Origin: Polytrichum commune
Taxonomy: Eukaryota > Streptophyta > Polytrichopsida > Polytrichales > Polytrichaceae
DNA: 64,000 bases
NCBI GenBank assembly: GCA_950295325.1
Contig: OX485806.1
Coordinates: 37,202,001-37,266,000, forward strand
Direction: 5' to 3'
Below, one piece after another: positions 20,224 to 47,445 of the stretch (position 1 is its first letter; every line of letters starts with the position of its first letter). The notes beneath the pieces are model-generated. The model saw only the letters and a list, made by a program, of their open reading frames with translations. It had not been told where the DNA came from and did no database searches. A program made the position numbers and the translations under genes.

Positions 20224-21411
20224 GTGTGGCTATATCAAAGGTATAAATACCGTATTCCAAAAAATGACCCACTTAAACGTGCCCAATATATAATACCAAC
20301 TCCAATACTAGATTTCCTAATAACATCATTCAAGATCAACCATTCATACTTCTCATCCCCAGTTACTTGTTCCACACAATTCACCCAATTCCACTCACCA
20401 TTCAACAGGGATAGAATCTTTGGATCCCTAGGAAAAGTGTTTGACCAAAAATGGAAGGGAATTGGTTACGCCCACCCCCATAATGCAACAGACTTACAAC
20501 AAGCCATCCATTGGGCCCGCATTGCGGCCAAAAACGATCCAAATACAATCACCATACTTATTTCAAAAGATGCGGATTGGTACCAAAATTTTAACCCATA
20601 CACTGGCCCATTCTTGGACACACACATCATTGCCCACTTCGCAGCAGACAACATCATATACGAAGAACCTACAATTCCCCCCGAACTCAATATCACGAGA
20701 AAAGAATTATCAACATTAAGAATATTCTGTATCCACCACCAAAACAATCACATCGGTACCCACGAACAAATGAATCAACTTACCAACATAGCAAATAACC
20801 TCCAAATATTACAAATTCTCACACAAATTGCACCACCCACCCCCGTAAATACCGCCGTTAACTCTAGCAAAAAATGGGCTAAATCTAACTACCCAAACAC
20901 ACCCGTAAATAATAACACACCTATTCCACAACTCCCAAATTACCAAACTAACTTACCACTAAAATTCCACCTTCAATTCAGCTACTACACAGACGGCTCC
21001 TTTATGAAACCCAAAGAAATTAACCCTGGAGTATGGAGAAGAGAAAGAGCCGGCTATGGAATCTATAGCCCCAAAGGCCTTAACATCTCCAAAAGACTAC
21101 ATGGACACCAAAACATACTACGAGCAGAAATGATAGCAATACATGAACCACTAACAACCATTAATACACTATATCCAAATGAACCCGCATACATATTTAC
21201 CGACAGTCTAAATGTATTATACTTACTCAACACACAAATTAAACACCCCACACTTCACAATAGCCACCCCGACCAAATTACCCTCGCCACCATGGTGCAA
21301 CTACTTCAAAACTGGACACAACCAACCACACTATACAAAGTTAGAGCACACGTCAACATTGACGGCAATGAACAAACAGACAAATTGGCAAAAGAAGGGC
21401 TAGAATTATAA
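20224..21411 (+). pseudogene. LINE RNase H region (copy A)
   Basis: Longest intact part of copy A, 395 residues from an internal methionine; the true ORF began upstream. The first 240 residues are a region conserved between all copies here but of unknown role (HSYFSSPVTCSTQF, HAIN-type helix, HFAADNIIYEE). The C-terminal 140 residues form a type I RNase H: YTDGS with Asp257, RAEM with Glu302, FTDSLNVLY with Asp327 and a VRAHVNIDGNEQTD end with His376 and Asp386. All acidic catalytic residues are present. RNase H degrades the RNA of the RNA-DNA hybrid during target-primed reverse transcription. A TAA ends the frame where copy C has a threonine, so the stop is a mutation and not the natural end. 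Confidence 0.75.
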
Positions 21412-25000: not shown

Positions 25001-25173
25001 TAGGGTTGTTCCAAAATTCATTGGAGAGTTCTTTGTCAATGTTGTCATTACCTGTCCATTTATAAATATTGGGGGTTTGTGTAGCCATAGTTTCTAAGTT
25101 GTTGATTCTGTCATATTTGTTGATTTGTTTATCTAGAAATCTAACGGGGCCTTTATCTGGCGTGTCTATCATG
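25001..25173 (-). pseudogene. LINE copy B, middle segment
   Basis: The minus strand encodes MIDTPDKGPVRFLDKQINKY, then NLETMATQTPNIYKWTG and ELSNEFWNNP, matching copy A from 21487 onward. It begins exactly where the 45.7-kb segment stops (PSMID), and ends exactly where the 23.5-kb segment begins (NPTITDK). The three segments are therefore one LINE split by two insertions. Confidence 0.85.
25164..25173. repeat. 10-bp target duplication, left copy (GTCTATCATG)
   Basis: GTCTATCATG here is repeated at 45711-45720. In the LINE it occurs once, as the codons for S-M-I-D on the minus strand. Its duplication brackets the 20.5-kb element. Eight to eleven bases, most often nine, is the range for Mutator-like elements. 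Confidence 0.9.
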
Positions 25174-25207
25174 CAACGACGCTACCGTGTGAGCGGTGAG
25201 CAGAAAA
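25174..25207 (+). repeat. Left terminal inverted repeat of the giant MULE
   Basis: It starts CAACGACGCTACCGTGTGAG and contains one GGTGAGC followed by AGAAAA. It pairs with the right end at about 45663-45710. The inner GTGAGCGGTGAGC core is identical in both ends. Confidence 0.85.
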
Positions 25208-25755: not shown

Positions 25756-28700
25756 CTAAGGTCCCACATGCTTCATGATGCCACTTTCGAGGAGGTGCTT
25801 CACTTCATTGAAACTAAGACTCGGAGCATGGATGAAAGTGTCTTCGTATTGATCCAAGTTGCAGGTCACACGGAAGATGAAGTACAAGTGCTTGCAGTTC
25901 ACCCAAGTGCGCCGCTTTCCAAGTGCTCTTGCTGACATCTCCACGAAATCCGGGCAGGTGCACGACGGGAAGGTGCTGATAGTGATACGGTACTCTTCAA
26001 CCTTAGCCTTCTTTCGGGACTGGAAGAGAATGATGCAGCCGATCCCTGGGTGAGGTATCATTGTGACGGAGGTGATTTGTCCGTCGACGTTGAGGGCTGA
26101 CTCCCACTTGTTGCGTTGTTGGACGCATGGTCCGTTGATACTGCGTCGGATCTTCTTTCCAAACCTCAGCGTAGGGTATTGATCGGCTTGGGCCGGAGTA
26201 GGGAGTTCGGCCATGGATGAGGCAACATTGGAGGAGTCGCCGAAGAATCTTCTGGGTGACACATCTTGACGCTGCTGAAGTTGGAATCCCCCTTCTTCAA
26301 GGGCCAGAACCTCCTGGAGAATGAGGTTTGTCCCAGTGAGGACAGGCCAGACGTCCGGGACATCCGGACGGTGCTGCACTCACTTCCTCCTGGTGCCTTT
26401 GACACATCTTTCAATGTCGTCGTTGCAGAAGAAGAATTGTGTCAAGAATTCCTTGTTCTTCTTGTAGTCGCGCATGTAGCCGGTGTACGTAGGAGCTGGA
26501 GTACTTTTACCATGCCGAACGATCTTCTGGGTGCACTTGGTCTTTGTGCGAGCTTGCATGGCGAAGCAGGCCTTGGCGGAAGTCTTGGGCAGTCTAGAAA
26601 TGTGCCACTTGGAGACATCGCAGTGGGTCTCCTGAATGTTATTGACGTGGGTGACCCGTTGTGGAATCGATTTCTCGGGTGATTGTGCTAGGGGCAGGTC
26701 TGATGGTGTGGAGGAATCCGTACGTGCCTTGGTTGACCTAGTGCTCACTCGTGGATGAGAGAAGCTAACCTTGTCGGGTCTATGTGAATCATGATCAGAA
26801 CCAGGGGGCATATCAAGTTTGCGCTTGGTGGTGCCAAAGACCTCCTCTCCTTCGAGTTGGGGTTTGCGGGTGCACCAATGCTCTGCTCCAGGCATGTGCT
26901 CGAGTGCTGCAACAATTCTCTTGGCGTCACCGGATCGTTGTGCAGCACGAAGGCGGAGTTCTTCCTTTCCTGGGCCAGTACCAGAGCGATCACCCTTCAA
27001 GTAGGCGTAGTAGTTCGTACATTGCATGAACGCCCTCACAAAATCATCGACGGTCGCAACATACAGATCAGAGCCACGGTTTCCAGACTGCTGAAGCCAT
27101 TTGTTATGGACTGTCTCGGAGAGGTTGCAAGATGGCATCTCTGCCAACTCAGAATCTGTGAAATTCTGAGAGAAATCAAGAAAATGTAGTGAGAATGCTT
27201 TGTACAAAAACAGGCTAAAATCCTAAACTGACACCCACAAACAAAAAAACCCACAAAAACAAAACAAAATCCAAAAAAAAATTCGGACCAAAAAGCGAAA
27301 CACACACTGTGGGTGGGTACTCACTAGTTGCATGAAACCACCCCATTGACGGTAACGAAAGTGCCAGAATGCAAGCCATGTATCAAGGTCTTTGATTCCT
27401 TCCTCGGATGCAGCTCCAGAGGATAGCCACCAAGCCCGGATGGCAAGATAACAGGACTCGGACTGCTCGGGAGTCTTGGCATCCTTGTACTGCTTGCATA
27501 ACAACTTGTGTTGCTATTGGAGGTCGGGCTTGATATGGGTGGCGGTGTGGCGCTCCATAGACACTGTCCAATGCAATAGACATGTCCTCTCGCGAGACTC
27601 CATAGGAACCTTGGGATCACCGTTGCCATAGATAATCCTAACTGCATTCCAATTGGCTTGTGCACTGTCCGCCATGAACCCTTTGAAGTTAACTTTAGCA
27701 ATGCCATGTTTGAGCATAACTTCATTGAGCCCATGCCATAGAAGGCTCTGCGCCGCGACATCCTCAGACTGCATATCACAAACTGCAATAGTCATAACCC
27801 GGCAGTAGGCCGAGTCATAGACATGGCAAACCATGGTCGTCCACCCCTTGACACGCTTGACATGGTCAAACATGACCCAAGCATCCTGCAAATCACCGTG
27901 TGGTTGCATTCTCCTGACAAGGTCCACTCCAGACCCAGGGCCCACCTCGGACATCTTGAAGACGTAGACTTTCTCCAACAGCTTTCCTTGGCCTGGGAAT
28001 TTATTTTCTTGCACATAGGGCCAACTGCTATGACCTCTAAGTCCGGTGATGCTGTCAATGATCCCCCTCGGCCAATGCGCTTGAAGGAAGTGATAGTGTT
28101 TCGAATACTCGGGGTGCTGAGGTGTTGGTACCTGTCCATGACAAACTTCATGGACTCGAGGTCCATAACTTTATTGGGATCAGATCCCGTGCGTAGAAGA
28201 TACTTGGCCAGGAACTCTTTACTTGCAGCCAATGCAATGGCAGAGTTGGTGGCGGTGGGAGTCCGCTCAACCTCTCTACCAATGAGATCATGAATTTCGA
28301 CCTTAGATTCTCTACAGACACCTTGCGAAACGGGGTGATGGTGATGACCCATATGGATGCATGCACGAGTCATGTCACCTCTGCCAAGAACATAGTACAT
28401 CTTAGCCTGGCAAGTATCAAGACAATAGGGTGGTGTCTTACAGACCTTACAAACGAGAGATGACCCAGCTGGGGGATCAACATCTGCGGTGAAGGGTGAG
28501 GGGGTACAGCCTTCCCATTCGGTCTCGTTGACGTCAGTGGCTCGATTGGGGCGGTTGAGATAATCACATCCCTCGTTATGACAGCAGAGATGGCCAACAC
28601 AAGATGAAAACCGGAAGGTCAAGCCGAGATCATTAGTAATGTTAGAGGTTTTTGTCCTACACCAAGCATGACCGTCGAAACGCTTGTCCATTCCGAACAT

Positions 28701-29423
28701 GAGTCTAGCATGGGAATGGGGAGCATCAGCTCCGAGAGGAGGAAACTCAAAGATGACGTCGCCGTCAAAAACAGAGGGGAGGAAGTCAACCTTCTCATGC
28801 CTAACGGATTCATAATCAATACTCTTGAGGATGTTCTTGGACCCTGGTCGGGTTGCAAGCAACTTCAATTGCTGGACAACACTGGGACGATCTATGGAGA
28901 CACCTGGGTGAACTGGGGGTCTGGAAGTAGGTGGTTGACTCACAGTAGGCGAGTGTGGAATCCTGAGAGGATTGATGAAGGGCTGATCCTGCGATGGAGG
29001 TGGGGTAATGTCTGAGGCAGGTGGCACATCATCATCAGAGTCATCGCTGAGCAAGGTAACCTCTTGGATGCCGGGCTCCTTCTTGACCGTCGCCAGAAGA
29101 GGAGCCTGCGTGGTGGAGGTGAGGGACACGCCTGGTGTAAGCAACACAGTTGTGGTGGCCATCTCCGACTCGGTGACACCTATGGCCTTGTACTTTGCAG
29201 GGAGCAAAAACCAAACCCTACCATCGTCAATGCGAAAGGACATCTGAAGGACAGTGTGAATCAAGTCACCGTTGTCATCAAAGACCTCTTCCTCGACATG
29301 AATTGAGTCTGGGTGGAATCTAAACCTCAGACTAAGGAACGACTCCGCGACTTTGGCTAGACCATCATCTCCTAGAGGGATCATAAGGGGGATGGAATGG
29401 TGCAGTGCTCGGATGGTGGCCAT
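25756..29423 (-). pseudogene. MULE transposase gene (zinc cluster, DDE, SWIM), broken
   Basis: Transcribed leftward from ATG at 29423. The N-terminal 270 residues are unfamiliar. A Cys/His cluster follows at about 28.3-28.6 kb (CVGHLCCHNEGC; CKVCKTPPYC; ACIHMGHHHHPV), which resembles a zinc DNA-binding module. The DDE region lies at about 27.95-27.55 kb: VMFDHVKRVKGW, then GFMADSAQANW, then CLLHW, the D-D and C-x-x-H spacing of MULE cores. An intron at 27166-27324 has GT-AG ends and keeps phase. A SWIM finger (CTCPDF ... CKHLYFIF, about 25885-25965) lies near the C-terminus, as usual in MULE transposases. Lesions: a one-base frameshift near 28016-28020, TAG at 27514-27516 in place of a probable Gln, and TGA at 26380-26382. 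The family is divergent from well-known MuDR proteins, so DDE assignment is moderate; SWIM is clear. Confidence 0.7.
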
Positions 29424-29507
29424 TGTAGAAGGAATGTAAATGCGAGCACACAGAAGGGAGTGGCCAAATGGGCAATGGAATTAAGCTGAGCAGAAAGTGG
29501 GGCGGTG

Positions 29508-31422: not shown

Positions 31423-34400
31423 TCGTAGAAGGTGGGCTATAGGCTTAGATTTCAGGTTCTCCCATTATGTGGTTGTTGAATATATGGGGTTCGGGACCGA
31501 ACCCTTCATTTGGAGGTCCCTAAGTGGCCTCATTTCAGGTTAGAATCTTACACTTTGAAGCCTCGGCTCTACATTGAGATTTCGGGTGCTCACTTTATAT
31601 ATGTGTAGTTGGCCTCAATTCAGGTTAGAATCTAACACCTTGAAGGAAGGCTATAGGTTCATATTTCAGGTTCTCGCATTATGAGGCTATCCAATATATG
31701 GGGTTCAGGACCGAACCCTTCATTTGCAGGTGAATAAGTGGCCTCATTTCAGGTTGGAAGCTAACGAATGAAGCCTCAGTTCTAGGTTGAGATTTCGGGT
31801 GCTCACTTTATATAAGTCCAGATGGCCTCATTTCAGGTTAGAATCTAACACTTTGAAACCTCGGCTCTACATTGAGATTTCGGGTGCTAAGTTTATATAA
31901 GTCTAGTTGGCCTCATTTCAGGTTAGAATCTAACACTTTGAAGCCTCGGCTCTACTTTGAGAATTCGTGTGCTCACTTTATATATGTCTAGTTGGCCTCA
32001 TTTCAGGTTGGAATCTTACAATTAGAGGCCTCCTCTCTAGGTTCAGATTTTAGGTGATCAATCTATGTTGTCTTAGTTGGCCTCATTTCGGGTTAGAATC
32101 TAAGTTTTTGAAAGTGGCATATAGGCTTAGACATCAGGTTATCACTTTATGTGGAAGTCCAATATATGGGTTTCGGGACCGAAACCTTCCTTTGGAGGTC
32201 CCTGGGTGGCCTCATTTCAACTTAGAAACGAACACTTTGAAGCCTCGGCTCCACTTTGAGATTTCGGGTGCTCACTTTATGTATGTCTTGTTGGCCTCAT
32301 TTCAGGTTAGAATCTTGAATTTGAAGGTGGGCTATAGGCTAAGATTTCAGGTTCTCACTCTATGTTGATTTAGTTCGCCTCCTTTAAGGTTAGAATCTAA
32401 CTCTTTGAAAGTGGCCTATAGGCTTAGATCTCTGGTAGTCACTTTATGTGGGTGTCCAATATATGGGTTTCGGGACAGAAACCTTCCTTTTGAGGTCCCT
32501 AAATGGCCTCATTTCAAGATAGAATCTTACATTTTGAAGCCTCGGCTCTACTTTGAGAATTCGGGTACTAAGTTTATATAAGTTTAGTTGGCCTCATCTC
32601 AGGTTAGAATCTAACACTTTGAAGCCTCGGCTCTACATTGAGATTTCGGGTGCTCACTTTATATATGTCTAGTTGGCCTCATTTCGGGTTAAAATCTAAC
32701 ACTTTGAAGCCTCGGCTCTACATTCAGATTTCGGGTGCTCACTTTATATATGTCTAGTTGGCCTCAATTCAGGTTAGAATCTAACACTTTGAAGCCTCGG
32801 CTCTACATTGAGATTTCGGGTGCTCACTTTATATATGTCTAGTTGGCCTCATTTCAGGTTAGAATCTAACACTTTGAAGCCTCGGCTCTACTTTGAAAAT
32901 TCGTGTGCTCACTTTATATATGTCTAGTGGGCCTCATTTCAGGTTGGAATCTAACACTTTGAAGCCTCGTCTCTACATTGAGATTTCGGGTGCTCACTTT
33001 ATATATGTCTAGTTGGCCTCATTTCAGGTTAGAATCTAACACTTTGAAGCCTCGGCTCTACTTTGAGAATTCGTGTGCTCACTTTATATATGTCTAGTTG
33101 GCCTCATTTCAAGTTGGAATCTTACAATTAGAGGCCTCCTCTCTAGGTTCAGATTTTAGGTGATCAATCTATGTTGTCTTAGTTGGCCTCATTTCGGGTT
33201 AGAATCTAAGTTTTTGAAAGTGGCATATAGGCTTAGACATCATGTTATCACTTTATGTGGAAGTCCAATATATGGGTTTCGGGACCGAAACCTTCCTTTG
33301 GAGGTCCCTGGGTGGCCTCATTTCAACTTAGAAACGAACACTTTGAAGCCTCGGCTCCACTTTGAGATTTCGGGTGCTCACTTTATGTATGTCTTGTTGG
33401 CCTCATTTCAGGTTAGAATCTTGAATTTGAAGGTGGGCTATAGGCTAAGATTTCAGGTTCTCACTCTATGTTGATTTAGTTCGCCTCATTTAAGGTTAGA
33501 ATCTAACTCTTTGAAAGTGGCCTATAGGCTTAGATCTCTGGTAGTCACTTTATGTGGGTGTCCAATATATGGGTTTCGGGACCGAAACCTTCCTTTTGAG
33601 GTCTAGAGGGTCAGACCCTGAGATCTCGGCGTCAAGGTTCAAATTACAGGTACTCACTTTATATAAGTCTAGTTGGCCTCATTTCAGGTTAGAGTCTTAA
33701 GCTTTGAAGCTTTGAGGATGGGCTCTAAGCTTAGATTTCATGTTCTCAGATTATGTGGCTGTCCAATATATGGGGTTCGGGACCGAAACCTTCATTTGGA
33801 GGTCCCTAGGCTGTCCAATAGATGGGGTTCGGGACCTAAACCTTCCTTTGGCGGTCCCTAGGTTGTCCAATATATGGGGTTCAGGACCGAAACCTTCTTT
33901 TGGAGGTCCCTAGGTGGGCTCATTTGAATTTAGAGACTAACACTTTCAAGCCTCGGCTCTACTTTGAGATTTCAAGTGCTCACTTTATATGTGTGTAGTT
34001 GGCCATATTTCAAGTTAGAATGTAGAATTTGAGGATGGGCTCTAGGCTTAGATTTCAGGTTCTCACATTATGTGGTTGTCCAATATATGGGGTTCGGGAC
34101 CGAACCCTTTATTTGGAGGTGCCTAAGTGGCCTCATTTCAGGTTAGAAGCTAACGAATGAAGCCTCGGTTCTAGGTTCAGATTTCGGGTGCTCACTTTAT
34201 ATAAGTCTACATGGCCTCATTTCAGGTTAGAATCTCACACCTTGAAGGAGGGCTATAGGCTCAGATTTCAAGTTCTCATAATTATGTGGTTGTCCAATAT
34301 ATGGGGTTCGGGACCGAACCCTTCATTTGGAGGTGCCTAAGTGGCCTCATTTCAGGTTAGAAGCTAACGAATGAAGCCTCGGTTCTAGGTTTAGATTTCG

Positions 34401-36600
34401 GGTGCTCACTTTATATAAGTCTACATGGGCTCATTTCAGGTTAGAATCTCACACCTTGAAGCCTTGGCTCTACTTTGAGAATTCGGGTGCTCACTTTATA
34501 TATGTCTAGTTGGCCTCATTTCATGTTAGAATCTCACACCTTGAAGGAGGGCTATAGGCTCAGATTTCAAGTTCTCACATTATGTGGCTGTCCAATATAT
34601 GGGGTTCGGGACCGAACCCTTCATTTGGAGGTGCCTAAGTGGCCTCATTTCATGTTAGAAGCTAACGAATGAAGCCTCGGTTCTAGGTTCAGATTTCGGG
34701 TGCTCACTTTATATAAGTCTACATGGCCTCATTTCATGTTAGAATCTCACACCTTGAAGCCTCGGCTCTACTTTGAGAATTCGGGTGCTCACTTTATATA
34801 TGTCTAGTTGGCCTCATTTCATGTTAGAATCTCACACCTTGAATGAGGGCTATAGGCTCAGATTTCAAGTTCTCATAATTATGTGGCTGTCCAATATATG
34901 GGGTTCGGGACCGAACCCTTCATTTGGAGGTGCCTAAGTGGCCTCATTTCATGTTAGAAGCTAACGAATGAAGCCTCGGTTCTAGGTTCAGATTTCGGGT
35001 GCTCACTTTATATAAGTCTACATGGCCTCATTTCAGGTTAGAATCTCACACCTTGAAGCCTCGGCTCTACTTTGAAAATTCGGGTGCTCACTTTATATAT
35101 GTCTAGTTGGCCTCATTTCAGGTTAGAATCTCACACCTTGAAGGAGGGCTATATGCTCAGATTTCAAGTTCTCAGATTTATGTGGCTGTCCAATATATGG
35201 GGTTCGGGACCGAACCCTTCATTTGGAGGTGCCTAAGTGGCCTCATTTCATGTTAGAAGCTAACGAATGAAGCCTCGGTTCTAGGTTCAGATTTCGGGTG
35301 CTCACTTTATATAAGTCTACATGGGCTCATTTCAGGTTAGAATCTCACACCTTGAAGCCTTGGCTCTACTTTGAGAATTCGGGTGCTCACTTTATATATG
35401 TCTAATTCGCCTCATTTCATGTTAGAATCTCACACCTTGAAGGAGGGCTATAGGCTCAGATTTCAAGTTCTCACATTATGTGGCTGTCCAATATATGGGG
35501 TTCGGGACCGAACCCTTCATTTGGAGGTGCCTAAGTGGCCTCATTTCATGTTAGAAGCTAACGAATGAAGCCTCGGTTCTAGGTTCAGATTTCGGGTGCT
35601 CACTTTATATAAGTCTACATGGCCTCATTTCAGGTTAGAATCTCACACCTTGAAGCCTCGGCTCTACTTTGAAAATTCGGGTGCTCACTTTATATATGTC
35701 TAGTTGGCCTCATTTCATGTTAGAATCTCACACCTTGAAGGAGGGCTATAGGCTCAGATTTCAAGTTCTCACATTATGTGGCTGTCCAATATATGGGGTT
35801 CGGGACCGAACCCTTTATTTCGAGGTGCCTAAGTGGCCTCATTTCAGGTTAGAAGCTAACGAATGAAGCCTCGGTTCTAGGTTCAGATTTCGGGTGCTCA
35901 CTTTATATAAGTCTACATGGCCTCATTTCATGTTAGAATCTCACACCTTGAAGCCTCGGCTCTACTTTGAGAATTCGGGTGCTCACTTTATATATGTCTA
36001 GTTGGCCTCATTTCATGTTAGAATCTCACACCTTGAAGGAGGGCTATAGGCTCAGATTTCAAGTTCTCATAATTATGTGGCTGTCCAATATATGGGGTTC
36101 GGGACCGAACCCTTCATTTGGAGGTGCCTAAGTGGCCTCATTTCAGGTTAGAAGCTAACGAATGAAGCCTCGATTCTAGGTTCAGATTTCGGGTGCTCAC
36201 TTTATATAAGTCTACATGGCCTCATTTCAGGTTAGAATCTCACACCTTGAAGCCTCGGCTCTACTTTGAGAATTCGGGTGCTCACTTTATATATGTCTAG
36301 TTGGCCTCATTTCAAGTTAGAATGTAGTATTTGAAGCTGGGCTCTAGGCTTAGATTTCACGTTCTCAGATTATGTGGTTGTCCAATATATATGGGGTTCG
36401 GGACCGAAACCTTCCTTAGGAGGTCCCTAGGGGGGCTCATTTCAACTTAGAAACTAACACTTTCAAGCCTCGGTTATACTTTGAGATTTCAAATGCTCAC
36501 TTTATATGTGTATAGTTGGCCTCATTTTAGGTTAGAATGTAGTACTTGAAGATGGGCTATAGGCTAAGATTTCAGGTTCTCACATTATATGGCTCTAATG
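31423..36600 (+). repeat. Tandem-repeat array 1 in the cargo gene (plus orientation)
   Basis: A 5.2-kb array of one family. The basic unit is 85 bp, seen exactly at 32590, 32675, 32760 and 32845: GGCCTCATTTCAGGTTAGAA, then TCTAACACTTTGAAGCCTCG, then a GATTTCGGGTGCTCACTTTA segment and TATA(T/A)GTCTAGTT. A longer unit adds CCAATATATGGGGTTCGGGA and the hairpin arm CCGAACCC. From about 34.2 to 36.3 kb these are organised as a higher-order repeat of 298-299 bp (starts at 34512, 34810, 35109, 35408, 35706, 36004, 36303). An identical-looking block of about 0.5 kb recurs 1,106 bp apart (about 31.98-32.51 and 33.09-33.62 kb). Open frames across it are repeat artefacts. Confidence 0.9.
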
Positions 36601-36683: not shown

Positions 36684-37623
36684 GGTGCATGCTATATCTT
36701 CGCCACCTTCGACACAAGTATCGGAGGGAAAGCTTCCAGATATGGATATACTAGAGGACGAGCATGAGGTAGAAGAAGAGTCTCTTGGAGATGATGCTCA
36801 CTTTCTAGGTAGTGAGGATGAGATTCGGACCAGGCAAAAAGTTAACTCTGTGGCCACGATTACAAGCTTGAGATTTCAACTAAACAGTTCTTCGCGATTT
36901 AATATTCCGTTGTGCAGATTGATGGCAATGCCAATGGTACGGCCAGCTCTGGCATCCGATCTTGCTAAGCTCGAGCAAGAATTTGTGCACGGATACAGAG
37001 AAGGCGCTTCGGTCTTTTATGTTACAATCACCAATGAAGACGGAAATACCCATGAAGTGACGGAAGCTGATAAAGCTTCTTGGGGTCCTATTTGGGACGC
37101 CAAAAACGCCATTTTCAACTCATTTCTCCTCTCGGATCCAGCATTGGCTCCATTCACAAATTTGATGTTCTTTGTGTGCGACGGCAACCAAGGCGTCAAA
37201 CTTGGTTAAATCACATTGACAGACTTCACGGAACTGATGAGGATTGGCATTATTTGGTGGATTCAATTCTCCTGGACACAAAGGGAAAAAATGGACTTGT
37301 TATGCAAGTCATGCACAACATAAACAAGTATGTTCATTCTCTTTTGATATATAATTTTTCATTGAAAATTCAATATTATTTCATTTTTTTTCTTACTACG
37401 ATAATCTAATATCTTCCATTTGATTTTTGTATTTAGACATACAGAGGACTCTCATGTGAAGACCAATATTGTCCATACCCTCTTCAGGGTTCAGAAGTAT
37501 GGTCTTATGTCAATTGAACAATTCAATGACATTTTGAGTCCAACCGACCTCAAAAAGGGCAAGAAGTCTTAGAAGATTTGGTATTCGTTACCATTACATG
37601 TATTTACAAATTTCATATTTCAG
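36684..37623 (+). pseudogene. Cargo gene exons 3-4: acidic segment and ParB-like domain
   Basis: Exon 3 (36684-37327) starts after TAG|GTGCATGC. It encodes an acidic stretch (DMDILEDEHEVEEESLGDD) and then LASDLAKLEQEFVHGY, SVFYVTI, WDAKNAIFNSFLLSDP and MFFVCDGN. The last motif, a hydrophobic strand ending in DGN, sits where ParB-type nuclease domains have DG-(H/N)HR. Just after it the frame shifts by one base, and the alternative frame continues RRQTWLNHIDRLHGTDEDWH, then VDSILLDTKGKNGLVMQVMHNINK. Exon 4 (37437-37623) continues HTEDSHVKTNIVHTLFRVQK and is crossed by a TAG at 37570-37572, though the phase after it still fits the next exon. ParB-like domains bind or cut DNA or use nucleotides; which applies here is unknown. 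Confidence 0.5.
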
Positions 37624-37667
37624 GTGCGTCACGGAATAGTCCTAATGATTTTGTAAAATATGTGAAC

Positions 37668-38855
37668 TTTGATGGTGGGCTATAGGTTAAGATTTCAGGT
37701 TCTCACATTTTGTGGATGTCCAATATATGGGGTTCGGGACCGAACCCCAATTAGAAGGTTCCTAAGTAGCCTCATTTCAGGTTAGAATCTAACACTTTGA
37801 AGCCTCGGCTCTAGTTTGATTTTTCACATGCTCACTTTATGTTGGTTTAGTTACCTTCATTTCATGTTAGAATGTAAATCTTTGAAAGTGGCCTATAGGC
37901 TTAGATTTCAGGGTCTCATTTTATGTGGGTGTCCAATATATGGGTTTCGGGACCGAAACCTTCCTTTGGAGGTCTAGAAGGTCACATTTTGAAGCCTCGG
38001 CTTCAAGTTTCACATTATAGGTGCTCACTTTATATTTATCTAGTTGGCCTCATTTCAGGTTAGAATCTAACAATAAGAGGCCTCGGCTCTAGGTTCAGAT
38101 TTAAGGTAAACACTGTATGTTGTTTTAGTTGGCCTCATTTCAGGTTAGACTCTAACTCTAAGTGGCCTCATTTGAACTTAGAAACTGACACTTTGAATCC
38201 TCCGCTCTAGTTTGAGATTTCAGGTGCTCACTTTATATAAGTCTAGTTGCCACATTTCAAGTTAGAATCTAACATTTTGAAGCCTAGGCTCTAGTATGAG
38301 AATTCGGGTGCTCACTTTATTTTGGTTTGGATGGCCTCATTTCAGGTTAGAATCTAACACTTTGAAGCCTCGGCTCTAGTTTGATTTTTCACATGCTCAC
38401 TTTATGTTGGTTTAGTTAGCTTCATTTCAGGTTAGAATCTAAGTCTTTGAAAGTGGCCTATAAGCTTAGATATGAGGTTCTCACATTATGTGGCTGTCCA
38501 ATATATGGGTTTCGGGACCGAAACCTTCATTTTGAGGTCAAGAGGGTCACATTTTGAAGCCTCGGCTTCAAGGTTCGAATTACAGGTGCTCACTTTATAT
38601 ATATGTAGTTGGCCTCATTTCAGGTTAGAATCTAACACTTTGAAGCCTCGGCTCTAGTTTGAGATTTCGGGTGCTCACTTTATATAAGTCTAGTTGGCCA
38701 CATTTCAGGTTAAAATCAAAGACATTGAAGCCCTGGATATAGGTTCAGATTTCAGGTCTCACTTAATGTTTTGGATTTGATGGCCTCATTTCAGGTTAGA
38801 TTCTAACAATGTGAAGCCTCGGCTCTAGGTTCAGATTTCGGGTGCTCTCATTTGT
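37668..38855 (+). repeat. Tandem-repeat array 2 in a cargo-gene intron (plus orientation)
   Basis: A 1.2-kb array of the same family as array 1, in the same orientation, inside the intron 37624-38959. It contains both the 85-bp type unit and units with CCAATATATGGG and the GGTTTCGG-GA-CCGAAACC hairpin. It is more diverged than array 1 and has variants such as TTTGATTTTTCACATGCTCA. Confidence 0.88.
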
Positions 38856-38959
38856 CTAGCTCTAGTTCAGTTCTTTTGTCCAAAACATCTTGTCCAACTT
38901 ATTAATTTTATTTTCATTTCAAAATTTGGTTTCCTCGTTCTTGTTCTCTCTTTGTGGAG

Positions 38960-40638
38960 CATGAGCTGGGTCTCGCTGCCGACGAGGGTGCACGTCAGCT
39001 TGTGGAGCAATCAGAAGGAGAAGTCTCCCCTGTTGACAAGGCGGCTGCGATGAAAGCCGCAGTTGAGAAGAGATCTCTGGCACTTCGCATGAAAATGGGA
39101 AAATTGGTTGCTGTGGCGAACCCGGAGCTTACCAACGGTTGGCTACGTGAGGTACGCACCCTGATCCTTTGTCCATATCAATCTTTTAAGCTTATCCGTT
39201 TGACTGAGGAACTCACAAGAGCTCTGTCTTTCAGATTGAGCGACATTACACGTTAAACTCACTTTCCCCGGACCTCAACTTAGAGAAGTTGCAGCTCATT
39301 GCAACTTCAAGGGCGTCTCCGGCAATGAAAATAAAATGGCTAGAGTACTTTAATTCATCTGCTTCCACTCGTGAGGCCCGAAAGCTACCTCCCAAGCCTA
39401 TCAACGAAGATAAATTGGCAAATTTCTTGGCAAAGGCTTGTTTCTGGGCAGGAGTAAGTCCACTGCTTCTATTCAATTTTCAGTTCATTGAATTCATCTT
39501 TGGCATGTAATTTACACAACTATCATTCTTTATTTCATCGACTTGATTTAGAAATTGTTCCAGCTGATGCTTATTTTCTTGCTTAACAGATCTCAGAACA
39601 GGCCAGTCTCGTTTTTTACGAGACCATGCGTCAAGACCAAGTTCCTATCAACATGAGTATTGCCAGTGAGCCCATGTTATTGCCAGCGTATATCGAAGAC
39701 TGTCGCATGAAGTTATGGGACCATACCTTCAGCACCTACTTCAGAGGACAAGATTCCTTCAAAAAAGGTGACGAGTTTGTTGGATTTAACGGAGCTGACC
39801 TAGTTGTCCGCCGAGTTCTTTTTCGGTGCGTCTCTAATCTTTAAGGACTTTTCATTAATTTCAGTAATTGGTTCAGTCCATATTCTTTGTTTTGCTAGTT
39901 CGGAAGTTGTTGATGTTAATGTTATGTGCTATTTCGTAACACAGGTACTTTAAGTACGAGCTTTTGGCGAAAGGAGCTATTTCCAAAGATGACCTTCCTG
40001 TATTCTTGAACACATGGCTTGATAGATCAAACTCAGCGTGCATGTTCTCGGCTCTTCAAGAACGCACGTGGACAAGTTCTCACCTTACCGGCGGTGCCTG
40101 GTATCTTGATTGCGCTTTAAGTTTCACTCCTTCTTTTGAGAATGAGCTCAGGAAATCAAGGGAGGTTGTAGGTGATTTTGGAATTGAAATGGTTGACTTA
40201 CAGGCCATAGAAGATGAAAATGAGAGGGCAAAGGCAATGAAACGACGCATTGAAGAGGACCGAAAGAAAGCGCTGAGGGTCAAGGAAGTTGAGGAGAGAA
40301 CTGACCAAAAAGAGCGGGAGAAGGTGCAAAATTCGTTGGATAAGTCCACTAGAAAGGGGAAAAATAAGATGAACCCCCCTCCGGAGCCACAAGGTAAGAG
40401 TCTGGTTGCTCCAAGTCCCACATATGAATCTGGTTCTCATGCTCCAACATTTTCTAGAGGCACAAAACGCGACTCGTCCTACGAGCAGTTGAGTCAAATA
40501 CCTATTATGACATATGGGGAGGAGCTCGACATCCATATTGAAGAGCTCATTCTCAACTCCTCATTGGACGACGTTCTTGGCGGTGACACGGATGAATTCA
40601 CCCCTTCCTACAACGACTTGAAAACATTCATGCTCAAG
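38960..40638 (+). CDS. Cargo gene exons 5-8: central helical region
   Basis: Exons 38960-39151, 39235-39453, 39590-39825 and 39945-40638 join in phase without any stop, encoding about 450 residues. Visible features: an Ala/Glu/Lys-rich helix (DKAAAMKAAVEKRSLALRMKM), LAKACFWAG, VFYETMRQD, FNGADLVVRRVLFRYFKYEL, WYLDCALSF, a charged coiled coil (ENERAKAMKRRIEEDRKKAL to KEREK), and a Ser/Pro-rich tail before the donor at 40639. I do not recognise the fold. In ParB-methyltransferase fusions the segment between the two domains often serves target recognition; that is only an analogy here. This part is undamaged, in contrast to the flanking domains. Confidence 0.55.
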
Positions 40639-40707
40639 GTACTGCTCTTCCTTTAAATTTATGCATTTCAATCTTGTCAATCCAATGGTGTGACCAGTAG
40701 AGTTAGA

Positions 40708-43050
40708 AAATTTGAGTATTTGCTCAACCTAGAACCGAGACTTCAAAATGTTTGATTCTAACCTGAAATGATGCCGACTAGACTTATATAAAGTGAGCAC
40801 CCGATATATGAACTTAGAGCAGAGGCTTCAAATTGTTAGATTATAACCAGAAATGAGGCAAACTAGATATATAAAGCGAGCACCCGAAACCTCAACATAG
40901 AACCGAGGCTTCAAATTGTTAGATTATAACCTGAAATGAGGCCAACTACATATATATAAAGTGAGCTCCTGTAATTTGAAGCTTGAAGCCGAGGCTTCAA
41001 AATGTGACCCTCTTGACCTCAAAATGAAGGTTTCGGTCCCGAAACCCATATATTGGACAGCCACATAATGTGAGAACCTCATATCTAAGCCTATAGGCCA
41101 CTTTCAAAGACTTAGATTCTAACCTGAAATGAGGCCAACTAAATCAACATAAAGTGAGCACCTTTAATCTGAACCTAGAGCCGAGGCCTCTAATTGTTAG
41201 ATTCTAACCTGAAATGTGGCCAACTAGACATATATAAAATGAGCACTTGAAATCTGAACCTAGAGCCGAGGCTTCAAATTGGTTGATTCTGACCTGAGAT
41301 GTGGCCAACTAGACTTATATAAAGTGAGCACATTAAATCTGAACCTAGAGCCGAGGCCTCTAATTGTTTGATTCTCACCTGAAATGTGGTCAACTAGACA
41401 TATATAAAATGAGCACTTGAAATCTGAACCTAGAGCCGAGGCTTCAAATTGGTTGATTCTGACCTGAAATGTGGCCAACTAGACTTATATAAAGTGAGCA
41501 CATTAAATCTGAACCTAGAGCCGAGGCCTCTAATTGTTTGATTCTAACCTGAAATGTGGCCAACTAGACATATATAAAATGAGCACTTGAAATCTGAACC
41601 TAGAGCCGAGGCTTCAAATTGGTTGATTCTGACCTGAAATGTGGCCAACTAGACTTATATAAAGTGAGCACCCGATATATGAGCTTAGAGCTGAGGCTTC
41701 CAATTGTTAGATTATAACCTGAAATGAGGCTAACTACATATATATAAAGTGAGCTTCTGTAATTTGAAGCTTGAAGCCGAGGCTTCAAAATGTGACCCTC
41801 TTGACCTCAAAATGAAGGTTTCGGTCCCGAAACCCATATATTGGACAACCACATAATGTGAGAACCTCATATCTAAGCCTATAGGCCACTTTCAAAGACT
41901 TAGATTCTAACCTGAAATGAGGCCAACTAAAACAACATAGAGTGAGAACCTGAAATCTTAGCCTATAGCCAACCTTCAAATTCTAGATTCTAACCTGAAA
42001 TAAGGCCAACTAAAACAACGTAAAGTGAGCACCCTAAATTTGAACCTAGAGCCGAGGCCTCTAATTGTTAGATTCTAACCTGAAATGAGGCCAACTCTAC
42101 ATGTATAAAGCGAGAACCTGAAATCTCAAAGTAGAGCCGAGGCTTCAAAGTGTTATATTCTAACCTGAAATGAGGCCAACTAGAACAACATAAAGTGAGA
42201 GCACTTGAAATCTGAACCTAGAGCCTCGGCTTCAAAGCTTTAGATTATAACCTGAAATGAGGCCAACTAGATATATATAAAGTAAGCACCTGTAATTTGA
42301 ACCTTGAAGCCGAGGCTTCAAGGTGTGACCCTCTAGACCTCAAAAGGAAGGTTTCGGTCCCGAAACCCATATATTGGACACCCACATAAAGTGAGAACCT
42401 GATATCTAAGCCTATAGGCCACTTTCAAAGACTTAGATTCTAACCTGAAATGAGGCCAACTAAAACAACATAAAGTGAGCACCTTTAATCTGAACCTAGA
42501 GCCGAGGCCTCTAATTGTTAGATTCTAACATGAAATGAGGTTAACTAGATATATATAAAGTGAGCACCTTTAATTTGAACCTTGAAGCCGAGGCTTCAGG
42601 GTGTGACCCTCTTGACCTGAAAATGAAGGATTCGGTCCCGAAACCCATATATTGGACAGCCACATAATGTGAGAACTTGAAATCTAAACCGAAAGCCACT
42701 TTCAAAGAGTTAGATTCTAACCTGAAATGAGGCCAGCTAAAATAACATAAAGTGAGCACCCGAAATATGAATTTAGAGTCGAGGCTTCATATTGTTAGAT
42801 TCTAACCTGAAATGAGGCCATGTAGACATATATAAAGTGAGCACTTCAAATATGAATTTAGAGCCGAGGCTTCATATTGTTAGATTCTAACCTGAAATGA
42901 GGCCACGTAGACATATATAAAGTGAGCACTTCAAATATGAATTAAGAGCCGAGGCTTCATATTGTTAGATTCTGACCTGAAATGAGGCCACGTAGACATA
43001 TATAAAGTGAGCACTTGAAATCTGAACTTAGAGCCGAGGCTTCAAAGTGT
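40708..43050 (-). repeat. Tandem-repeat array 3 in a cargo-gene intron (minus orientation)
   Basis: A 2.3-kb array of the same family but inverted: on the plus strand the units read CTAACCTGAAATGAGGCCAA and AAAGTGAGCACC, the reverse complement of arrays 1 and 2. It fills most of the intron 40639-43372. Hairpin blocks with GGTTTCGGTCCCGAAACC occur near 41030, 41818, 42352 and 42628. Because it is inverted, it can pair with arrays 1 and 2 across the central exons. Next to it, a 235-bp direct duplication (GATATGAATTTGAGCTTGAC at about 43052 and 43287) adjoins the next exon. Confidence 0.9.
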
Positions 43051-43372
43051 TGATATGAATTTGAGCTTGACTGTGGGTTGAGGGAATCTGGTTTGGGGGT
43101 TAGGAGTTGATATTTGACTGATTATGATTTGAGTCTAAGGGTGGGTGAGGGAAGAGGGGATTCTGGTAGGGGATAGATGTATAAAGTTTTGATTTTTCTA
43201 AGACTCTGAAATTGAAATGTAGGACTCGTAAGAGGTCTCTCGGCCCCGACACACTCTGTTTAGGGTCTAATATGTTAGTGATTTTGATATGAATTTGAGC
43301 TTGACTGTGGGTTGAGGGAATCTGGTTAGGGGTTAGGAGTTGATATGTGACTGAATTTGATTTGAGTCTAAG

Positions 43373-44883
43373 GGTGGTTGGGGGTTGAGCTGGGTGCAGC
43401 ACTCAAAAGACAAAATCCGGCACTACAAGGGTTCTCCGGAGGACCATCCCTGTTTGGACTTGATTCTTGCAGATATACCGGAAGGTCTTCCTGTTCCTGG
43501 CATATCAGACCCACCGTCGTCCATTCCCGCTTGGAATCAATAATCGAAAGAGTGGTTACAACCACTCTTTGACTTTGCCGACGAACATCTGCACGACGAC
43601 GGGGCAATTATTTTGTTTCACCCTTTTCGCATGAGTACGAAGTCCAATATTCTTGGATATTGCAAATCGTATGGTTTTGCAATTCGGAAAGAGTGGTGGG
43701 GAATGAACCGCCTTCATCTCACATCCCCATTAAATCCAGCATCAACTGTAAGATAAACCTTATGTCTTCTTGCTAATCACCGCATTCAGTTTCAATTTAA
43801 TCCTTGAGGTAGTTCTGAGTATAGACCCACCTAAGTATTATACTCATGCAGTTGTGTTGTTTACTTTGTAAACTAATGTTGTTCTTTATGTCTGGTACAT
43901 TGTAGACCATGAGGTTCGGTATTTCATTGGCGGTCAGGAGCGTGCCGGGGTCACCTGCATCGAAGTTTTCATTTCGCCTTGTCCTTGCATTGGATCCTTA
44001 TGGGGTGGATGTTGCACGGGATGATATTCTCCAGAACTTGGTCTCTCGTGAGGACCAGCTAACTAATGGATCCACACCATGGCGAGGGCCTCGTGAAAAA
44101 TCCGTGCTTCTAATGCAAATGCTAATTGAAGCATGTAGCTCCCCATGGGATATTATTCTAGACTGCACGGCAGCGACCGGTATGTCTTTGTAATCTTCCA
44201 TTTCAGTTGGTTAATCGTTAATATTGTTTTGGTCTACAAAATTCATAGTTATTTTTGTACTAAGTTTTTTCCAACTTCTTTATTTGCAGGATCTTCCATT
44301 CATGCATGCCGCAATTTGCACCGTCACATTGTGGCATTAGAGGCTGATGTTGATATTTTTGAGGCCTTACTTGCTCCATTGATTATCTCTAGAGCAGCCT
44401 CTGAAGTCACTCTTGAAGACCGTGTCACCAGTTTAGAGGATCCTGAGGGTGAAGATATCCCCGTAGAGAGGATTGTGAAAAGATCTCGGTTTACTAAGTG
44501 AGTAAGGTCCACAAATTCTCTTACATGTGTTATGTTTTTTGCTGTCATTTCTTATAAAGTTGAGTTATGAACATGGTACCATTGGCATTTGCAGATGCGA
44601 TAAATTGGGCTATCCTATTCACCGGCCTTTTTTTTGTGACCCTAAATTCTATCCCAGCCCTCCAAAGTCTTGGCAACTTCCTACATATGCAAATGATATT
44701 GCTAATCAACTAGCTGGAGGTTCTTATCAGACTTTTACATCTAAATATCGTCCGGGAAGAGTTTTAGAGTTTTTGGATATAGAAGCTTTAGAATCTGATG
44801 GTCAGGCCTCCTCTGATGCAGATATTACTGATTCTAGAATGTCTTCATCATCAGGTGATCACAGTGATTCGGATCTGATGTAA
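43373..44883 (+). pseudogene. Cargo gene exons 9-12: permuted N4/N6 methyltransferase-like domain
   Basis: Exon 9 encodes LDLILADIPEG (43460-43486), placed like motif IV (D/N/S-PP-Y/W) of amino-methyltransferases, then after a TAA at 43541 FADEHLHDDGAIILFHPFR and a GMNRLHLTSP strand. Exon 10 (43906-44179) carries PWRGPREKSVLLMQMLIEACSSPWDIILDCTAATG, split by an intron before SS. Exon 11 (44290-44497) continues IHACRNLHRHIVALEADVDIFEALLAP. The pattern EK---LL---I---S-----DIILD--A-TG-S----------HIVALE-D--- is the motif X/I/II block of the permuted (beta-type) N6-adenine/N4-cytosine family. Exon 12 (44595-44883) is an acidic, Ser-rich tail ending in DLM. The catalytic motif is altered (DIPE for DPPY) and the SAM loop reads DCTAATG for DPFxGxG, so activity is doubtful. 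Phases agree at all three introns. Confidence 0.6.
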
Positions 44884-45662
44884 TAGCTTCATGTGAATGT
44901 CTGTGTACTATCTAATATATCGTTTTTTCTTCCGTTGGTTTTTCAGTTTGTGCACTCATTCCGCATGGAATTCATTGTATGTGTATCACTTTCGGAGTTT
45001 TTGGGATTGCATATATGAAATTGCATATTTAAGTTAACTTTTGACTTCGTTTTTTTTTTATATTGTTCAAAATATTTTCTAACACCACTTGGTTACTTGT
45101 TAATGTTTGAGTGTTTGGATTTATAAAGTGTGGTGTGGTTTTTAATATTCCAATTGTCTTGTTGAATGCATCTTGTCGTTGTTCTCAAATAACACTACAC
45201 TTTTGTGGTCGTCAACTAGTAGACAATCTAAAGACAAGTAGCCAAACCAAATACACCTAACATTTTGATTTCTCAAGCATATCCTACCCACAAGAAAGAG
45301 GCCTCGGATCCGAGGCCTCTTTCCAAACCTCCTCCTCATGCTAGAACATACAAGAAATGGCCAAATGCAAAAACAAGTAGCCAACTCAAATATACATAAC
45401 ATTTTGATTTTCAAGCATAAGCTACCCACAACTAAGAGGCCTCGGATCCGAGGCCTCTTCCCATAGGTCCACCATCTTCTCAACCACACTGAATTTTCCC
45501 ACGGCCATAGGGACTTGTTGGTAATTTTAATAAACTTTTGGTCCTAAAAATTAGGCACTCCATAAATATCGGCCTCATAATTCCAAAATTAAGCTTCAAA
45601 TATGTCCTAAATCCATGGTCATAGGGGTCCTAACTTTAGTTAAATGGAGTTTTAAATTTTGA
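44884..45662. other. MULE right subterminal region with two 26-bp perfect palindromes
   Basis: No coding frame is supported. Two direct copies of a roughly 138-bp unit (about 45230-45322 and 45370-45460) share CAAGTAGCCAA, CATTTTGATTT, CAAGCATA and CTACCCACAA, and each ends in a perfect palindrome centred on GGATCC with arms AAGAGGCCTC (45296-45321 and 45434-45459). Such paired palindromes next to a transposon end could be transposase or regulator binding sites. Confidence 0.7.
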
Positions 45663-45710
45663 TTTTCTGCTCACCGCTCACCGCTCACCGCTCACATCGT
45701 AGCATTCCTG
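45663..45710 (-). repeat. Right terminal inverted repeat of the giant MULE
   Basis: Reverse-complemented it begins CAGGAATGCTACGATGTGAG and carries three GGTGAGC units where the left end has one, then AGAAAATC. The 7-bp unit expansion explains the 14-bp length difference between the ends. The target duplication GTCTATCATG follows at 45711-45720. Confidence 0.85.
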
Positions 45711-45719
45711 GTCTATCAT

Positions 45720-46220
45720 GGAGGGCCATTCGTCTTTTTGGTAGTAGTAAGGTGTGGCATGGGCGTGTTCGTATGAATGTGTGGCGCATCTATGGGTAAG
45801 GTCCAATCCTTCTTTTGCCAATTTATCTGCTTGTTCGTTTCCGTCTATGTTGACATGTGCCCTAACTTTGTATAATGTGATTGGCTGGGAGCGATTTTGG
45901 AGCAGTTGTACAATGGAGGCAAGTGTGATTTGGTCTGGGTGGTTATTGTGTAGTGTGGGATGTTTAATTTGTGTGTTTAGCATATATAGTACATTTAGGC
46001 TATCAGTAAATATGTATGCGGGTTCATTTGGATATTGGGTATTAATAATTCGTAATGTTTTGTGGATGGCAATCATTTATGCGAGTAATATATTCTGGTG
46101 GCCATGTAATCTTTTGGCTATACTAAGCCCTTTAGGGCTATAAATGCCATACCCGGCTTTTTCTCTTCTCCATACTCCAGGGGAGATTAGTTTAGGTTTT
46201 TTAAATGATCCATCAGTATA
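45720..46220 (-). pseudogene. LINE RNase H domain (copy C)
   Basis: YTDGS at about 46206-46220, GYGIYSPKGL, HGHQNIL, FTDSLNVLYML and VRAHVNIDGNEQADKLAKEG are present. The catalytic glutamate of the RAEM motif is replaced by TAA (LA-stop-MIAIH, near 46077), which destroys the gene at an active-site codon. The frame ends in DEWPSMID, where the MULE has inserted. Confidence 0.75.
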
Positions 46221-46229
46221 ATAACTAAA

Positions 46230-47445
46230 TTGTGGATGAAATTTTAATGGGAAGTTAGTTTGGTAATCAGGTAGCTGAGGTATAGATATATCATTGAGTG
46301 TGGGAGTATTGGGATAAGATAGTTTGGACCATTTTTTGTTGGGGTTGACCGGGGTATTCGGGGGGGGGGGTGAGTGGCAACTTGTATATGTGGTTGTGGT
46401 ATTGAGAGGTTATTTGCAATATGGGTGAGTTGATTTAGTTGTTCGTAGGTTCCAATGTGGTTGTTTTGGTGGTGTATACAAAGTATTTTTAGTGTAGAAA
46501 GTTCTTTCCTAGGTGTATTAAGTTCTGGTGGAATAGTGGGTTCTTCATATGTGATAGTATCTGCAGCAAAGTGGGCGATAATGTGTGTGTCTGGGAATGG
46601 GCCGGAGTGTGGGTTGGAGTTTTGGTACCAATTATGATCAGGTGAAATCAGTATTGTGATAGTATGTGGGTTTTTTTTGGCGGCAAGACGGGCCCAATGT
46701 ATAGCATGTTGTAGGTCTGTGGCATTATGGGGGTGGGCGTAGCCTATTCCTTGCCATTTGTAGTGAAAGGCCTGCCCTAAGGATCCAAATATTTTATCCC
46801 GTGAGAATGGGGAGTAGAATTGATTTAGTTGTGTAAGGCATGTGACTGGGGATGAAAAATATGAGTGGCTGATATTGAATGATGTGGTGAGAAAATTTAA
46901 TATTGGAGTTGGGATTGTATACTGGGCTAGTTTTAGAGGGTTATTTTTTGGGATACGATATTTGTATCTTTGGTATAACCATATTATTTCAGTTTCAAAT
47001 GGTTGTGTAGGTGGTTCTAATCCGTGCGGAGTGTTTTTGGCGAGTTGGTATTGTTTCCATAACCACTGTAGTCGATGGTGGTGAGGTGTCGGCCATTGTC
47101 TTCATATATGTGGGCAACATCAAAATGCGTTTGGATAGTATTAGTGGTGGTTTCCATATCGCTTTTGGGGTTGCATTCATTGATTGAGATATGTGCTAAT
47201 GGGATGATTGTTGCGGGGATAACATATATTGTATCTTGTTGTTGTTCTGTGGCAAAATGGGCGGATATTAGGTTTGAGAAGTGTTTGTGTTGTCTTTTGG
47301 TATAGTATTGAGTTAGGATTTCGGTATTATGTGTACAAGTGTTAGTGTCGTACCAAAGGAATAAGTCTCTATAGGTTCGCCATTTGTTATAGGTGTTATT
47401 ATTTCGTACTATCCATTGGCATAGATATGATGTGTCGTTTTTCAT
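46230..47445 (-). pseudogene. LINE region between RT and RNase H (copy C)
   Basis: Conserved among copies A, C and D but not recognised. It includes SYLCQWIVRNNN, TQYYTKRQHKH, IPATIIPLAHISINECNP, FDVAHIYEDNGRHLTT, and then a stretch with the HFAAD-like and YSSP-TC-TQ blocks of copy A. Its conservation across diverged copies suggests a real domain; in algal Dualen an additional protease is encoded, but I see no convincing Cys-His pair here. Several frame breaks. Confidence 0.5.

Follow-up and report, generated by a model that had tools for sequence, protein, structure and literature searches.

A MULE-type transposon of Polytrichum commune with a ParB-like/methyltransferase-like gene and palindromic arrays

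Introduction

To our knowledge, few transposon-encoded anti-silencing proteins are known, VANC among them. According to the accessible parts of two reports, VANC21 binds YAGTATTAY, a motif repeated in the introns and upstream regions of VANDAL21, which leads to loss of that element's DNA methylation, and related VANDALs use other motifs (PMC5735166, PMC10398659). Effects related to anti-silencing are also ascribed, in the text available, to TnpA of Spm and to MURA. Here we describe a complete Mutator-like (MULE-type) element in a 64,000-nucleotide stretch of Polytrichum commune DNA (contig OX485806.1; hereafter the window). It carries a transposase gene, a divergent gene for a ParB-like/methyltransferase-like protein, and arrays of the palindrome TCGGNNCCGA, which this protein may bind.

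In anatomy the element recalls VANDAL21 and VANDAL6 (Hiun) with VANC, as far as the accessible text describes them, in being a MULE with extra genes and with motif-bearing tandem repeats in introns and upstream regions, the motifs varying. Unlike there, the motif is palindromic, the protein has an N6_N4-methyltransferase-like domain, and anti-silencing is what we infer. We liken the element to VANDAL/VANC by anatomy, not by sequence, and do not class it as VANC. It shares with MuDR (mudrA/mudrB) and two-reading-frame MULEs a transposase with a second gene, target site duplications (TSDs) of 9–10 bp and a SWIM-like finger (near-threshold here), but its second gene is ParB/methyltransferase-like and its transposase has no PF10551 match.

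Three systems outside the MULEs are also comparable. Fusions of ParB with N6_N4-type methyltransferases occur in phages and prokaryotes (described in the part of PMC12704722 seen; we retrieved five annotated examples, the phage methyltransferases L060–L064, whose N-terminus is of ParB type) and have the same order, ParB-like then methyltransferase, and a GxxR box. Unlike these fusions, the protein here is ~1,080–1,100 residues long with a long middle part, is encoded by ten exons, has lost motif IV, and its ParB match is non-significant. Bdelloid N4CMT is likewise a eukaryotic PF01555 methyltransferase relevant to transposon chromatin, but, from the available part of PMC8885841, it is a host gene, is active with SPPY and silences transposons. 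Virus-integrated Mariner elements also encode a methyltransferase-type protein, although they belong to another transposon superfamily with other methyltransferase families, and the portion of PMC3627910 consulted mentions no palindrome arrays. Among titles and abstract openings from sources other than subscription journals and preprints, we found no plant transposon described with a ParB/N6_N4-methyltransferase-like gene.

A complete two-gene element

The window lies in contig C4 of a 407.8-Mb genome, nearly all of which is held by the seven largest contigs (42–78 Mb). LEAFY is a plant gene, and its domain PF01698 gave four matches above cut-off here and none in 14 control genomes, in agreement with the plant host assumed in an initial annotation of window positions 36684–44883. 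The element extends well outside that interval, spanning 20,537 bp (25174–45710) with terminal inverted repeats (TIRs), and is flanked by a perfect 10-bp TSD, GTCTATCATG, at 25164–25173 and 45711–45720. The flanks with one TSD align ungapped (471 bp, 79%) to an uninterrupted long interspersed nuclear element (LINE) copy in the same window, an empty site, and matches to copies B and C of the element begin at the left TIR. Inside lie two divergent genes, the transposase (minus strand) and the ParB/methyltransferase-like gene (plus strand, ten exons found). The features are:

25164–25173, no strand: left TSD GTCTATCATG, from the flanks and empty-site alignment
25174–25201, plus: left TIR CAACGACGCTACCGTGTGAGCGGTGAGC
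25756–29480, minus: MULE-type transposase gene (SWIM-like finger, DDE-like region), broken
31491–36407, no strand: intergenic tandem repeats (85-, 214- and 299-bp units among others) with 14 TCGGNNCCGA palindromes
36685–37327, plus: exon 1 (first found), acidic N-terminus and ParB-like region with DGN(H)R box
37437–37623, plus: exon 2, with TAG at 37570 in the window copy
37734–38521, no strand: intron 2, three TCGGNNCCGA palindromes
38960–39151, plus: exon 3, middle part
39235–39453, plus: exon 4
39590–39825, plus: exon 5
39945–40638, plus: exon 6, lysine/arginine-rich stretch
41033–43249, no strand: intron 6, tandem repeats, five TCGGNNCCGA palindromes, mosaic breakpoint between subfamilies
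43400–43747, plus: exon 7, methyltransferase-like, degenerate motif IV DIPEG; TAA at 43541 in the window copy
43906–44179, plus: exon 8, methyltransferase-like, motif I DCTAATG
44290–44497, plus: exon 9, remainder of the AdoMet-binding half
44595–44883, plus: exon 10, C-terminus and stop
45304–45451, no strand: two GCCTCGGATCCGAGGC palindromes close to the right end
45683–45710, minus: right TIR (reverse complement CAGGAATGCTACGATGTGAGCGGTGAGC)
45711–45720, no strand: right TSD GTCTATCATG

MULEs are defined by TSDs of 8–11 bp adjoining the TIRs (PMC6446971, in part). The TSDs next to the TIRs measure 10 bp in the window element and 9 bp in copies A (CAGTCGATG) and I (AAACCATGA), both read from the element ends, and so fall within this range. 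At the ends of the more distant element G up to 12 bases are in common, leaving its border uncertain, and its TSD is readable. The window transposase is broken by a frame break near 28.1–28.2 kb and a TGA at 26380–26382. No match to PF10551, the MULE-type DDE transposase family, was found in the element's transposase; ten genomic PF10551 loci were fetched, and hhalign against eight of them, two being dropped for having more than two stops, aligned 16 columns at E 0.067. The SWIM finger PF04434 scored 17.5 and 16.8 bits, against a cut-off of 19.6, in two of three transposase fragments, and was not detected in the third. TSDs, TIRs and this near-threshold finger bear out the earlier proposal that a MULE carries the gene, which lies between TIRs in the window element, as does the homologous pair of element G. 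Wherever element ends were fetched (window element; copies A, B, C, F, G, H and I), they bear short tandem words of GAGCGGTGAGC type, including those of G, whose exon 1 is 47% identical.

A ten-exon gene kept with the transposase

That exons within 36684–44883 join in consistent phase was proposed from the window alone, and comparison of independent copies upholds it: the same blocks recur in the same order and phase, bounded by GT..AG, and all ten join in one phase in relatives. Chance open reading frames are ruled out by this ordered recurrence. The predicted protein has ~1,080–1,100 residues counted from the first exon found, at 36685, where the gene model begins; the start codon and any upstream exon lie outside the model. 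The window copy of the gene is dead because of three lesions. A 1-base frameshift directly follows DGN (~37190), where copies A, C, D and E stay in frame and copy B likewise breaks; the TAG at 37570 is a sense codon in copies A, D and E; and the TAA at 43541 is GAA in copies A–E.

Relatives of the gene are numerous. Genome-wide, 150 matches were scored per probe, so that the derived counts are lower bounds: at least 150 for the ParB-like exon 1 (from 931 candidates) and at least 150 for the methyltransferase-like exon 8 (from 890), many of them open across the exon. Eight copies of one exon-1 subfamily have an identical score of 160.1 bits, which suggests recent spread. For at least 94 of the 150 exon-1 matches, exon 8 is matched downstream on the same strand at no more than 40 kb (two control orientations gave 6 each); at least 72 have a transposase match divergently upstream within 40 kb (controls 1, 7 and 7), and at least 60 have both within that distance. 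The 22 most distant exon-1 matches had no partner among the exon-8 and transposase matches listed; one of them is element G, in which both genes were found inside the TIRs once it was fetched. The gene pair is also retained in a third diverged family (C1:2.25 Mb). Stops in the exon-1 matches listed are mostly TAG (19 TAG, 4 TGA, 4 TAA), and six of seven TAG in aligned copies stand at Q or W codons; this excess would fit C-to-T decay, perhaps in a CHG methylation context.

Selection was estimated from 51 exon comparisons, 27 of them with saturated dS and many others with dS above 1, so that the values are rough. Between subfamilies, unsaturated dN/dS was 0.06–0.23 in exon 1, 0.13–0.22 in exon 5, 0.10–0.12 in exon 7 and 0.07–0.13 in exon 8, which roughly indicates purifying selection. 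Close pairs gave higher, noisy values that we counted neither way (W/C 0.52 in exon 1; A/D 0.27 and I/L077 0.51 in exon 7; I/L077 0.30 and A/D 1.92 in exon 8). Since MULEs frequently capture host genes (PMC6446971, in part) and no fully open copy was found among the ten read, the gene could be a Pack-MULE-like passenger without function for the element. However, it has been kept with the transposase, and under purifying selection, across families whose ParB-like regions are at most 45% identical. Genome-wide linkage and dN/dS led us to reject a pure passenger, an explanation we now regard as highly improbable.

The two halves of the protein

The N-terminal half has the conserved core IPLC..-P..RP-..D...LE..F..GYR.G..V.Y(V/I)-..-MFF..DGNHR..AW.N.I. 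ParB proteins have a Box I of helix plus loop and a Box II GxxR (PMC12704722, as far as available), and the order of boxes in the ParB-like region agrees with that description. The Box II equivalent, DGNHR, is present in all five sequences of alignment A1 and in 13 of 17 further copies read (20 were fetched, three without a readable frame).

The C-terminal half is, by profile comparison, a permuted N6_N4-type methyltransferase fold. With exons joined, PF01555 scored 33.0 bits (E 7.8e-8) in copy E and 31.0 in copy I against a cut-off of 26.7; an F/G composite remained under it (23.7 bits), and single exons gave weak matches (E 0.064). Relatives in PDB are DpnA (E 7.9e-7) and CcrM (E 0.041), and phage DNA methyltransferase PHROGs also match. 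The position of motif IV precedes motif I, and motif I, D...T..TG, is retained in most copies with its aspartate and glycine. The permuted methyltransferase-like block read from the window alone thus stands; that reading was to be given up if neither ParB nor N6_N4_Mtase profiles matched, and in this half the latter do.

Motif IV was readable in 24 copies, nine main copies and 15 of 18 fetched fragments (the other three lacked the exon). Seventeen of them have D[ILQ]PEG and four QFPDG, in one of which a stop replaces the Q; DILEG, DQPKG and DIPES occur once each. The canonical catalytic form [DNS]PP[FYW] is found in none of the 24. An active DNA methyltransferase with an unusual catalytic motif could mark its own element, as the PF01555 fold, the motif I aspartate and glycine, and the D-x-P-E-G form in 17 of 24 copies would allow. 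Against this stand the missing [DNS]PP[FYW] and the QFPDG of element G and its relatives, which lacks the motif IV aspartate; in bdelloid N4CMT, changes of Ser and Tyr in SPPY abolished activity (PMC8885841, part seen). With motif IV non-canonical in 24 of 24 copies we rejected an active modification enzyme, now a very unlikely explanation, and with it the DNA-modification role first suggested for the gene. Because dN/dS is low between subfamilies while motif IV is non-canonical, the fold appears to be selected for, its catalysis probably lost, so that the protein is probably not a methyltransferase.

Capture from a prokaryote, also suggested initially, is plausible, but no donor was found in the viral and genome contigs scanned. 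Pattern scans of these for relatives gave 347 and 51 stretches, respectively, none of them confirmed, and the first phage methyltransferase matches opened (H13, H3, H2) were single coding sequences of 684–741 bases with no ParB-annotated neighbour.

Palindromic arrays accompany the gene pair

The element contains 24 copies of TCGGNNCCGA and the rest of the window none (mean of shuffles 0.14). Fourteen lie between the genes, three in intron 2, five in intron 6 and two near the right end, and 0 of 24 overlap an exon. The non-coding parts are packed with tandem repeats of 85-, 214-, 299-bp and other units; the element thus has tandem motif arrays in its non-coding parts, as VANC-type systems do. 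Binding of these palindromes could instead make the protein an accessory transposition factor that joins element ends or helps insertion without a role in silencing, like mudrB of MuDR, to which a passage available to us gives an accessory role in transposition. Two-reading-frame MULEs are known (PMC6446971, in part) and conservation of the gene is as expected for an element function, but 22 of the 24 palindromes are interior, two are near the right end and none is near the left TIR, and we think this explanation unlikely.

We prefer recognition of the element by its own protein, and the genome-wide distribution of the palindromes is consistent with it. The extended site GNNTCGGNNCCGANNC occurs 4,879 times against 153 for the reversed pattern, the GTCT type 1,383 times against 0 and the GTTT type 405 times against 3, that is, ~32-fold or more above control. 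Subfamilies have their own palindromes (GGTTCGG..CCGAACC, GTTTCGG..CCGAAAC, GCCTCGG..CCGAGGC, GTCTCGG..CCGAGAC), which sit in repeat units of differing period and sequence. Among the sites listed, which are the first on contig C1, 50 of 50 GTCT, 40 of 50 GTTT and 37 of 72 GNNTCGGNNCCGANNC sites have a listed match to the gene or the transposase no farther than 20 kb away (random C1 positions 2.8%). The 35 unexplained GNNTCGGNNCCGANNC sites form one cluster, which proved to lie between a transposase (minus strand) and ParB/methyltransferase-like exons (plus strand): the genes of this third family, ~40% identical in the ParB-like part, were predicted from the palindromes before they were seen.

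The flanks of the palindrome are symmetric as well. In 40 distinct 26-mers, representing 88 sites at eight loci, the two arms match at position 1 in 38 (shuffled mean 21.8, maximum 33), at position 2 in 33 (16.8, maximum 25) and at position 4 in 30 (15.7, maximum 26), both arms covarying. A symmetrical dimer reading the site would be expected to lead to such paired change. TCGGNNCCGA is a good candidate for an address label read by the protein, the predicted versions of the binding site being GTTTCGGNNCCGAAAC, GTCTCGGNNCCGAGAC and GCCTCGGNNCCGAGGC.

Exchange of 3' halves between subfamilies

Copy H is 66–83% identical to the window element or copy A in the matching gene parts through exon 6, and from exon 7 to the 3' end (~1.7 kb) 95.6% identical to the window element and 95.0% to copy A. 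Between A and D, dS is 1.9 for exon 1 and 1.8 for exon 5, then drops to 0.08 (exon 7) and 0.015 (exon 8). Because of this jump and this drop, the methyltransferase-like 3' half is, by comparison of the copies, exchanged between subfamilies with differing 5' halves. Palindrome types differ too: D and H have GTCT, and the window element and A mainly GTTT/GGTT and GCCT. Since 3' halves are exchanged while 5' halves and palindrome types differ, the 5' half may be the palindrome reader, which suggests that specificity follows it.

A second palindrome family

GTTTGGGTCGNNCGACCCAAAC is the core of AGTTTGGGTCGATCGACCCAAACT, an array motif of element G; the genome contains 9,231 exact copies of this core and none of the control pattern. 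Another multi-copy gene, with at least 150 scored matches, stands no more than 10 kb from 77 of the 100 sites listed (random 0.6%); it carries GDFWLIDGQHSVEA, a DGQHS box (for example C1:2118822 and C1:1187057; L088, L087). At two GTTTGGGTCGNNCGACCCAAAC clusters tblastn found no ParB, methyltransferase or transposase match, and a DGQH-box gene family stands there instead. This gene shows weak similarity to a ParB PHROG (E 0.014) and has no Pfam match, and GDFWLIDGQHSVEA is possibly a ParB-like box. A DGxH-box gene beside palindromic arrays thus occurs twice in the genome. The C-terminus of the DGQH family, a possible methyltransferase-like part, gave no library match.

The sharing of GTTTGGGTCGNNCGACCCAAAC between element G and this other gene family would fit a common host reader. 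In that case a host factor would recognise the palindromes, either in silencing or because the elements exploit it, and the protein would have an unrelated role. TCGGNNCCGA arrays, however, accompany the gene pair, once to the point of predicting it, and GTTTGGGTCGNNCGACCCAAAC too accompanies a DGQH-box, possibly ParB-like gene; we judge a host factor quite unlikely.

Weighing self-recognition

Several observations count against self-recognition by a ParB-like protein. All ten copies read (window and A–I, F in part) are interrupted by a stop or a frame break or lack an exon; none is open end to end, and therefore no working gene was seen. The DGNHR box is altered in four of the 17 further copies and reads EGNHC in the third family. 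Searches of Pfam, PHROG, NCBIfam and PDB gave no ParB-family match for the gene, the few weak matches being to unrelated families, and hhalign to a ParB profile scored 17.3, against 16.3 for the best of 30 column shuffles, over 12 columns covering the GxHR box alone. Because of the missing library match and this marginal score we write ParB-like: of the ParB domain first proposed, the box in the right order stands and the family assignment, which lacks statistical support, is undecided. Single-sequence AlphaFold on exon 1 of the window copy (first 174 residues, owing to the frameshift) was uninformative at pLDDT 40.

The palindromes raise doubts as well. Flank position 3 is symmetric in 26 of 40 26-mers against 25.4 in shuffles, and positions 5–7 are also within the shuffle range. 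The putative link between protein and palindrome is one of co-occurrence, in repeats that are not independent. In element G, TCGGNNCCGA is absent and arrays of other palindromes, AGTTTGGGTCGATCGACCCAAACT and AACGCACAGGG..CCCTGTGCGTT, are present; since G shares GTTTGGGTCGNNCGACCCAAAC with another gene family, a given motif may belong to more than one protein.

Other features of the window

A LINE-like open reading frame at 20074–21411 (plus strand) matches RNase H (E 1.1e-12); further upstream, without change of frame, it matches PCIF1_WW (PF12237; E 1.6e-10, 41.3 bits, cut-off 31.1), so that this retrotransposon may carry a PCIF1-like piece; a literature search on PCIF1 and retrotransposons returned work on human LINE-1 RNA. 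A related LINE copy lies at 46244–47101 (minus strand). Three open frames of 151–260 residues, one coiled-coil-like, lie at 61124–62871 (minus strand); two of them were scanned and had no Pfam match at E 0.01.

Discussion

We propose a two-gene MULE-type family in which one gene encodes the transposase and the divergent gene a ParB-like, degenerate N6_N4-type methyltransferase protein. This protein would bind, as a dimer, TCGGNNCCGA and its symmetric flanks in the intergenic region and introns, and once bound would keep the DNA of its element accessible, as VANC does for Arabidopsis VANDAL21. For this whole chain, from self-recognition to anti-silencing, we hold belief and doubt to be evenly balanced.

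Should the ParB-like part prove to be a nucleotide-switch clamp, the protein may also spread from the palindromes. The element would then carry a plant counterpart of parS/ParB, in which palindromes specific to the element serve as loading sites and the protein spreads from them by a nucleotide switch, shutting out the silencing machinery, while protein and palindrome co-diversify. We put this version forward tentatively and find it rather unlikely. The DGQH-type family with its different palindrome suggests that such a system arose more than once.

The palindrome, which goes beyond what the initial annotation contained, would make the proposed rule testable, since the predicted site is short and symmetrical and differs from one subfamily to the next. 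If self-recognition is true, these elements would represent a second, apparently different architecture for anti-silencing, with palindromic arrays, which would suggest that DNA transposons have countered silencing more than once through private DNA addresses. A dead methyltransferase fold would, moreover, have been put to use in a eukaryotic transposon.

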